Part shown: in pieces, positions 28,729 through 30,223 of the stretch | How positions within the stretch are numbered: position 1 is the stretch's first letter | Layout of the letters: every line of letters begins with the position of its first letter | DNA from: Corynebacterium liangguodongii | Lineage (GTDB): Bacteria; Actinomycetota; Actinomycetes; Mycobacteriales; Mycobacteriaceae | Direction of reading: 5' to 3' | NCBI RefSeq assembly: GCF_003070865.1 | Contig: NZ_CP026948.1 | Coordinates: 124,001-188,000 of the forward strand | DNA length: 64,000 nucleotides | Program-made: the position numbers and the translations under genes | Notes under the pieces: generated by a model | Databases searched by the model: none | The model's input: the letters and a program-made list of their open reading frames with translations, nothing else | Told to the model about the DNA's origin: nothing

Positions 28729-29754
28729 CTAGAAGTCCCAGTCGGTGTCGTCGGTCTCTACGGTCTTGCCGATGACGTAGGAGGACCCGGAGCCGGAGAA
28801 GAAGTCGTGGTTCTCGTCGGCCCCGGGGGTAAGTGCGGTGAGGATCTCTGGGCGGATGACGCACTTCTTTGAGGCGAAGAGCTCTTTGTAGCCGAGGTTC
28901 ATCAGGGCCTTGTTCGCGTTGTAGCGGACGAAGGCGGAGACGTCGTCGAAAAGCCCGAAGGGCTTGTAGAGCTCGCCGGAGTATTCGACCTCAAGGTTGT
29001 AGAGCTGGCGCACGAGGTCGTAGGTGAACTCGCGCATCTGCTCCTGTGTCTCCTGCGGGTGTTTCTCCAGGCCGCGCTGGTACTTGTAACCGGAGTAGTA
29101 GCCGTGGACCGCCTTGTCGCGCAGGATGAGGCGGATGAGGTCGGCGGTGTTGGTCAGCTTCGCGTGCACGCTGAAGTGGAGGGGCAGGTAGAACCCGGCG
29201 TAGAGCAGCAGGGACGACAGCAGGGTGGAGGCTACTTTGCGCTTTAATGGGTCGTCGCCAAAGTAGTGGCGCAGTACCACGGCGGCGCGCTCTTGCAGCA
29301 CGGGGTTGTCGATCGCCCAGGAATAGGCGGCGTCGATCTCTGCGGTGGATGACAGGGTGGAAAAGACCGAGGAGTAGCTGCGGGCGTGGACCGCCTGCAT
29401 GAACGCGATGTTGGCGTAGACCGCCTCTTCATGGTCGGTCTGGGCGTCCTGGATCTGGCTGATCTCGCCGACGCTGGCCTGCACGGTGTCGAGCAGCGTT
29501 AGGCCGGTGAACACGCGCATGGTCAGGCGCCTTTCTAATTCGCCGAGCTTGTTCCAATCCGCCAGGTCGTTCGACAGCGGGACCTTCTCGGGCAGCCAGA
29601 AGTTGCTGGTCAGGCGGTTCCACACCTCGAGGTCCTTCGGGTCTTGCACGCGGTTCCAATTAATCGGCCGCAGCGGCTTGGCGTTGCCCAGGCGGAAGTG
29701 CGGGGGCGTTTGCGAATCCGCGAGAAACTCGGTGGGTGTTCTCATTGTGTCCAT
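28729..29754 (-). CDS. nrdF: Ribonucleotide reductase R2 subunit, metal-free class Ie (QSK) type
   Basis: This is the radical-generating subunit of a class I ribonucleotide reductase. The 341-residue fold matches NrdF throughout ([25 protein letters not shown]). Compared with canonical R2 ligands, Asp89 (D67 in Salmonella NrdF), His123 and His217 are kept. The three Glu ligands are replaced: Gln120 (E98), Ser180 (E158) and Lys214 (E192). The radical-site Tyr127 is kept. Gln/Ser/Lys is the diagnostic triad of class Ie R2e, which uses a modified tyrosine (DOPA) radical instead of a metal centre and needs NrdI for activation. The C-terminal tail DDTDWDF is NrdF-like. nrdE and nrdH are not in the window. 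Confidence 0.93.
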
Positions 29755-29773
29755 CCTTATCTTTTCTTGGTGG

Positions 29774-30223
29774 TTAGTGCTGCTCGGCAGGTTCGGCGTG
29801 ACGGATAAAGGCGTCGGAGGCGAAAAACTCTTTCAGTCCGCTTCGCACGCGCGCGACGTCGTGCTCGGTGCCGAGGAGCTCGAATCGGTAGAGCTCCGGG
29901 ACACCGCACTTTCGGGAGATCATGGGCCCAGCTATGCAGTACGCGGTGCCAAAGTTTCGGTTACCTGCGGTGATGACGCCGCGCAGCAGGGCCCGGTTGG
30001 CCTCGACGTTGAGGAACTTCCTCACCTGTACCGGGATGGCGCCTTTGATGCTCCCGCCGCCGTAGGTGGGGACGATGAGCACGTAGGGGGCGCTGACGCG
30101 AAGCATTCCGTCGCGCTTCGGGTACAGGGGGATGCGCAGCGCTGGGATGCCGAGCTTGTCAACAAACCGCTTGGTGTTCTCGCTCGCCGAGGAGAAGTAC
30201 ACCAGGCGCGGGGTCTCTGTCAT
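29774..30223 (-). CDS. nrdI: NrdI flavodoxin-like RNR activase
   Basis: This is a 149-residue flavodoxin-like protein that supplies oxidant or electrons to NrdF. The FMN-site loop is [12 protein letters not shown] near residue 10-21, PTYGGGS at about 52-58, and ITAGNRNFG (about 84-92) is the NrdI signature. It lies 19 bases upstream of nrdF in one transcription unit. In class Ie systems NrdI is needed to generate the modified tyrosine radical, so the pairing supports the NrdF reading. Confidence 0.93.

Follow-up and report, generated by a model that had tools for sequence, protein, structure and literature searches.

The nrdI-nrdF pair described here probably provides Corynebacterium liangguodongii with a backup for manganese starvation. 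Our best reading is that it supplies a second, metal-free R2 to the single NrdE of the cell, that it stands under a predicted MntR operator, and that two alternative wirings of this control exist in the genus. The kind of protein is already known. The present analysis adds its control, namely an MntR-type box and, in relatives, linked MntR-like paralogues with a putative operator of their own.

The window, i.e. the whole stretch of 64,000 nucleotides that was analysed, sits in a single contig of 2,357,924 bp (C1; a 2.36-Mb genome). Coordinates with the prefix C1 refer to this contig, all others to the window. The features that the argument needs are the following.

28729..29754, minus strand: nrdF, class Ie-type R2 (QSK variant), 341 aa (translation, structure alignment)
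29113..29115, minus strand: Lys214 codon, Glu in class Ib (translation, alignment)
29215..29217, minus strand: Ser180 codon, Glu in class Ib (translation, alignment)
29374..29376, minus strand: Tyr127 codon, radical tyrosine (translation; putative DOPA, after PMC11846895)
29395..29397, minus strand: Gln120 codon, Glu in class Ib (translation, alignment)
29774..30223, minus strand: nrdI, flavodoxin-like activator, 149 aa (NCBIfam profile, PDB alignment)
30257..30272, no strand: inverse-order dyad TGAAC-N6-GTTCA, overlapping the palindrome (sequence)
30268..30283, no strand: palindrome GTTCAATTGGTTGAAC, predicted to be an operator of MntR and located 44 bp upstream of the nrdI start

On the minus strand, nrdI lies 5′ of nrdF with a gap of 19 bp between the two genes. 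The NrdI protein passes the cut-off of the NCBIfam nrdI equivalog profile (153.3 bits against 74.65), and the solved NrdI proteins with which it aligns best are 3N39 chain C and 8J4X chain G. An NrdI is thus encoded together with the QSK NrdF, as in class Ie, and an earlier note on this DNA, made before the present analysis, was right to regard this neighbour as fitting.

In the translation of nrdF, Q120, S180 and K214 replace three ligand Glu residues, and D89, H123, Y127 and H217 are retained, just as the earlier note had read them. Three of the four carboxylates of a class Ib R2, whose ligand set consists of four carboxylates and two His, are hence replaced. The closest solved relatives of the protein are PDB 8RAG and 8RAH, both of the Gardnerella R2e QSK protein. 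In the residue alignment, the Q, S and K of the window NrdF stand opposite Q, S and K of these structures, and opposite E, E and E of 9L6O, the next-best solved relative. Judged from these residues, the window NrdF is a class Ie (QSK) R2 of the kind already characterised from Gardnerella, and the class assigned to it earlier can be kept. The proteins of Mesoplasma and Aerococcus, which had been put forward for comparison, are less suitable for that purpose, since their R2e proteins are of the VPK type according to PMC11846895 and the nearest solved proteins are those from Gardnerella. Among the 80 named relatives listed, 39 have the triad QSK and 41 EEE, with no mixed case, and the Asp, both His and the Tyr are kept in all 80. 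By analogy with the characterised Gardnerella protein, the window NrdF would be free of metal, carry DOPA and be active.

The same genome also holds a canonical class Ib system. A second NrdF, of the same protein family and 59% identical to the window NrdF, is encoded at C1:1869737-1870693, with all ligand Glu residues in place (DEHYEEH). A search of the genome with PF02867 gives one R1 (nrdE) only, at C1:1871621-1873180, which adjoins the canonical nrdF. Upstream of the latter lie a gene that looks GntR-like by eye and NrdE, followed by an NrdI that is 57% identical to the window NrdI. The window NrdF is thus the second R2 of the cell. Both this and the absence of nrdE near the pair had been anticipated. 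The canonical NrdF and NrdE are encoded far away, and with one R1 in the genome, the window NrdF would have to share it. John et al. 2025 similarly infer that QSK loci lacking nrdE use the R1 of another system (PMC11846895). The two R2 genes of the genome differ in their ligands and in their upstream DNA, the canonical one having EEE and no MntR-type box, and that of the window QSK and a box upstream. No GTTCA-N6-TGAAC box (at most one mismatch) was found in the 15 kb around the canonical nrdF operon.

We now consider this box, which we take to resemble the MntR consensus of C. glutamicum; a search of the open-access literature for the latter gave no text match. The 2.36-Mb genome contains two exact copies of GTTCA-N6-TGAAC, one before nrdI and the other at C1:306184-306199. 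The second copy is intergenic, located between a DtxR-family (MntR-type) gene and a divergent gene for a ZnuA-type binding protein, which is followed by an ABC ATPase and then an ABC-3 permease. As base composition by itself predicts about 0.8 exact boxes for this genome, the weight lies in the positions of the two sites and not in their number. At one mismatch or less, there are 72 boxes against 36 for the control, a two-fold excess only, and the genome-wide claim is therefore carried by the two exact sites. In the MntR of this genome, Asp stands where DtxR has Met10 and Cys102 (D10/D102), the DtxR of the genome itself having M10/C102, and acidic residues at these positions shift the selectivity to Mn (PMC9936198). 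The best solved relative of this MntR is 5ZR4, a ‘metal-dependent transcriptional regulator’, followed by SloR and ScaR. The genome thus has what an MntR regulon calls for, that is, an MntR-type regulator and a box common to the nrdI and the metal-uptake/mntR promoters. Binding of MntR before nrdI and a response of the pair to manganese in C. liangguodongii are predicted on this basis.

The N6 of the overlapping inverse dyad (30262-30267) reads TATTAT on the nrdI strand and is a possible −10 element; a scan of 30150-30450 for sigma-70 promoters and terminators gave no match. A gene for a cadmium-resistance-type transporter (PF03596; 30433-31023, plus strand) is divergent from nrdI, and the GTTCA-N6-TGAAC box, being situated between the two genes, could serve both.

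The census of the genus corrects the earlier note in one respect, in that the QSK nrdI-nrdF pair turns out to be widespread in Corynebacterium. The window NrdF was searched against 242 genomes of the genus and gave matches in 237. Besides the window, at least 111 matches in at least 109 other genomes are QSK-like, as judged by score and extent, with 63-77% identity over nearly the whole length. For 80 of the matches listed, the sequence was retrieved together with as much as about 4 kb of upstream DNA; 78 of them have a QSK and two an EEE triad, and none is mixed. Together with 12 further loci, 90 of the 111 QSK-like matches were read, the other 21 being near-copies by score. The gene order is nrdI-nrdF in 65 of the 78 QSK loci and nrdI-nrdE-nrdF in 13, and nrdI is upstream of the QSK nrdF in every one of them.

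These 78 loci come from 77 genomes, each of which has in addition a canonical-type NrdF, 75-92% identical to the canonical copy of C. liangguodongii. The residues of this NrdF are EEE in 31 of 31 cases read (30 genomes of the genus and the own copy). This disagrees with the count given in PMC11846895, where John et al. 2025 state that 40 Corynebacterium species have a QSK enzyme as their sole RNR. Two genomes, G032 and G156, have two QSK loci each plus a canonical NrdF. At eleven loci (L165, L166, L168, L170-L172, L176, L179, L181, L183 and L197), a PF01613 flavin-reductase-domain gene and a PF01243 PNPOx-like gene adjoin nrdI in divergent orientation, and some other QSK loci have one of the two alone beside nrdI. 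The products of these neighbours might reduce NrdI or its flavin.

The scan for the box covered the 200 bp before each QSK operon, along with 20 bp of its first gene. Among the nrdI-nrdF loci, it is present exactly in 23/65 and with at most one mismatch in 36/65. The reversed pattern is absent at both stringencies (0/65 each), and 0.03 and 0.35 are expected from shuffles. When similar upstream regions are counted once, the numbers become 19/45 exact and 26/45 with at most one mismatch. The nrdI-nrdE-nrdF loci have a box in 1/13 cases at either stringency (reversed pattern 0/13 and 1/13). Control windows inside nrdF contain no exact box (0/65), but 10/65 match at one mismatch. Upstream of the canonical nrdF, the box was found in 0/31 cases at one mismatch, and the first promoter of the canonical operon has no box in C. 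liangguodongii or G039, the two genomes covered. In the 38 box sites collected (34 distinct), the conserved core extends into AT-rich flanks.

Looking at whole genomes, 26 others that were searched have 2-10 exact boxes each (control 0-4). Within the flanks fetched, 5 of 19 global MntR-like genes (the own one and those of G129, G001, G036 and G240) have an exact box, about 250-270 bp before the metal-binding domain and thus just before the gene start. The reversed pattern gives 0/19 for these genes, and the exact box 0/11 for the linked regulators discussed below. At one mismatch, the box is near 7/19 global MntR-like genes against 1/19 for the control; for the other 12, the G039 gene among them, no box turns up at this stringency over a distance of about 1.5 kb. 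As judged from these sites, the box is tied to MntR, but it is not present at every mntR gene.

The box is present at 37 of the 78 QSK loci (at most one mismatch), which leaves 41 without it. A DtxR-family gene is present upstream in 31 of these 41, and in 33 when G179 and G051 are added, for which more upstream DNA was read. The upstream stretches of the box loci contain no such gene (0/37), and none was found on the downstream side of five box loci and the window. The linked regulator adjoins nrdI in some loci and lies at a distance of up to about 2.7 kb in others, where one or two genes may intervene. The comparison of box and linked regulator gives a Fisher p of 1e-14, a value not corrected for descent. 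Counts of DtxR-family genes (PF02742) are in keeping with this, being two in 14/14 box genomes, three in 15/17 linked genomes and two in 3/3 genomes with neither, the exceptions among the linked genomes being G172 with two and G156, with its two QSK loci, with four. The notion of nrdI-nrdE-nrdF loci without metal control was dropped once such loci, too, proved to have linked regulators, two of which came to light only with more upstream DNA. Eight of the 78 loci have neither box nor linked regulator in the stretches read (G111, G080, G141, G188, G133, G132, G231 and G125).

The box-less promoters share another dyad. ACTACG-N6-CGTAGT occurs exactly in 7 of 25 non-redundant promoters of this kind, compared to at most one in each of 30 shuffles. 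Ten exact copies were found in 7 of the 16 genomes searched, and all ten are before a QSK nrdI. The remaining nine genomes, most of them of the linked type, have no exact copy, from which it follows that the dyad is often degenerate. With at most one mismatch, each of the 16 genomes has fewer copies of it than of the reversed control (0-8 against 9-24), and only exact matches were therefore used. A variant with an N5 spacer gave no exact match, and its one-mismatch matches were not recognised as QSK promoters. At two mismatches, the dyad is kept in G111 and G080, two of the eight loci with neither element, and is also seen in four box loci; G125 has only a degenerate box. In G032, both QSK loci come with a linked regulator and an ACTACG dyad of their own.

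At position 10, the linked regulators have Asn in 25/31 cases and Asp in 6/31; position 102 is Glu or Asp. In a quick tree, they form two groups of 11 and 20 sequences, separate from the 17 global MntR-like proteins included. The larger group is joined by an unlinked protein, and the branches are long, so that the details of this tree are unsure. The presumed recognition helix is mostly SDAVRKL- or SDQIRRL-like in one set and mostly SEAVKRL- or SEAIKRL-like in the other, and thus differs between the linked and the global MntR-like proteins, as a changed operator would need. The linked regulators may be the proteins that read ACTACG-N6-CGTAGT.

In a quick tree of 82 NrdF proteins, the box label needs 11 changes, five of them forced by well-supported branches. 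Five pairs on supported branches enter a paired test of box versus linked regulator; two to three of them are informative, and all of these point in the expected direction, with p 0.25-0.5, which is not significant. Outside Corynebacterium (tblastn, flanks of at most 3 kb), linked regulators were found upstream of nrdI in 2 of 30 named QSK loci, L046 and L051, both from Actinomyces, and the claim of two wirings is for this reason limited to Corynebacterium. Within the genus, we consider it fairly likely that two mutually exclusive wirings exist, in which the pair is controlled either through the global MntR box or by MntR-like paralogues of two clades, encoded within about 2.7 kb of nrdI and reading the private operator ACTACG-N6-CGTAGT. 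The wiring would have been swapped repeatedly, and the cassette would be a self-contained metal-deprivation module.

How the pair is controlled could also be seen differently. The protein could be of class Ie with its box read by another regulator, or the pair could respond mainly to iron or oxidative stress instead of being a backup for manganese starvation. We regard this as unlikely, although several of the results above are compatible with it: the count of exact boxes in this genome is close to that expected by chance from its composition, 12 of the 19 global MntR-like genes have no box nearby, and the metal of the linked regulators is unsure because their first metal-ligand position is mostly Asn and not Asp (25/31). 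The MntR of C. diphtheriae can, furthermore, bind its sites with iron as well, at high levels (PMC13001254). On the other hand, the one further exact box of the genome falls in the intergenic stretch that separates MntR from a metal ABC transporter, and the corresponding pair of C. diphtheriae is listed as MntR-regulated, with a promoter that DtxR does not bind (PMC13001254).

Another option is a modified class Ib enzyme, in which the QSK NrdF still binds metal, either as a single ion or as a different pair. The retention of Asp89 and both His ligands speaks for this, but Lys214 would put a positive charge in the site, and the structure of the closest solved relative, the Gardnerella R2e QSK protein, has an active site without metal ions, reduction being supported only by the DOPA-containing protein (PMC11846895). 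We regard this option as very improbable. Still less credible is a decaying, inactive paralogue, which the three changed active-site residues and a TAG inside the matched stretch of G129 might suggest, given the at least 111 QSK-like matches of near full length and 63-77% identity in at least 109 other genomes of the genus, the lack of mixed triads in 80 genus and 80 named loci, and the nrdI upstream in 78/78 QSK loci; the earlier note had likewise argued against decay.

The backup for manganese starvation, which we prefer, would operate as follows. When manganese is plentiful, Mn-loaded MntR would sit on the palindrome before nrdI and keep the pair off, and DNA precursors would come from NrdE and the canonical NrdF, which depends on Mn. 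Once manganese runs low, MntR would leave the nrdI palindrome, as it would at the promoter of the metal ABC transporter. NrdI would then deliver an oxidant, by which Tyr127 is hydroxylated to DOPA, and the DOPA radical in the QSK NrdF would drive NrdE without metal. At 33 of the 78 loci of the genus, a dedicated MntR-like paralogue near nrdI may do the same job via ACTACG-N6-CGTAGT. That the R2 serves when Mn or Fe is withheld had already been suggested in the earlier note, and the predicted MntR-type box and the linked regulators of the relatives lend this independent support.

This wiring would link manganese withholding to DNA synthesis. A 2021 review states that it is not understood when cells use class Ie enzymes (PMC8463856), and with an operator, a global sensor and dedicated sensors in culturable relatives, this question becomes directly testable. 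In the open-access literature searched, we found no link of QSK enzymes to the MntR box, the dedicated paralogues or the private operator, and one open-access review that names both ‘class Ie’ and MntR draws no connection between them in the passages concerned. John et al. define neighbourhoods as RNR genes within 300 nt of each other (PMC11846895), which places the regulators outside their analysis.

It remains to compare the pair with known systems. The R2e protein of Gardnerella vaginalis (Bifidobacterium vaginale; 8RAG/8RAH) shares with the window NrdF both the Q, S and K triad and the retained residues (Asp, two His and Tyr), and the two align from residue 10, in the N-terminal extension. 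The Gardnerella vaginalis locus of the named set (L057) encodes a protein 63% identical to the window NrdF. The gene there is part of a complete nrdHIEF operon and belongs to the only class I RNR (PMC11846895), unlike the window, with its nrdI-nrdF pair, separate canonical system elsewhere and MntR-type box.

Another counterpart is found in C. diphtheriae, whose MntR regulon is reportedly the subject of Peng 2021. The DtxR of genome G039 is identical over 226 residues to that of C. diphtheriae. In G039, a QSK nrdF, 65% identical in its product to the window NrdF, directly follows nrdI, with the same box upstream, here reading GTTCAATGCGTTGAAC. Of the two NrdF proteins found in this genome, the canonical one is encoded behind nrdI and nrdE, more than 3 kb from its nrdI, and we therefore take the QSK pair to be DIP1923-1924. 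PMC13001254 counts nrdI (DIP1923) and nrdF2 (DIP1924) of C. diphtheriae among the genes under MntR control and reports no binding of DtxR to the nrdI promoter. This is an nrdI-nrdF pair like that of the window; NrdF2 is called beta chain 2 there, and a metal-free property is not mentioned in the passages that deal with it.

The class Ie system of Streptococcus pyogenes, for which Do 2019 is said to be the primary paper, offers a further comparison. It is also a second, metal-free RNR, and its expression goes down with Fe and Mn (PMC8463856). The system stands under MtsR, a Mn sensor of the DtxR family by which ribonucleotide reductases are controlled (PMC9253540). It differs in having the VPK triad and the order nrdFIE with its own R1, as stated in general terms for VPK systems in PMC11846895, and in belonging to another phylum. 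By this analogy, the wiring in Corynebacterium appears as a parallel case to the Fe/Mn-repressed class Ie system of S. pyogenes.
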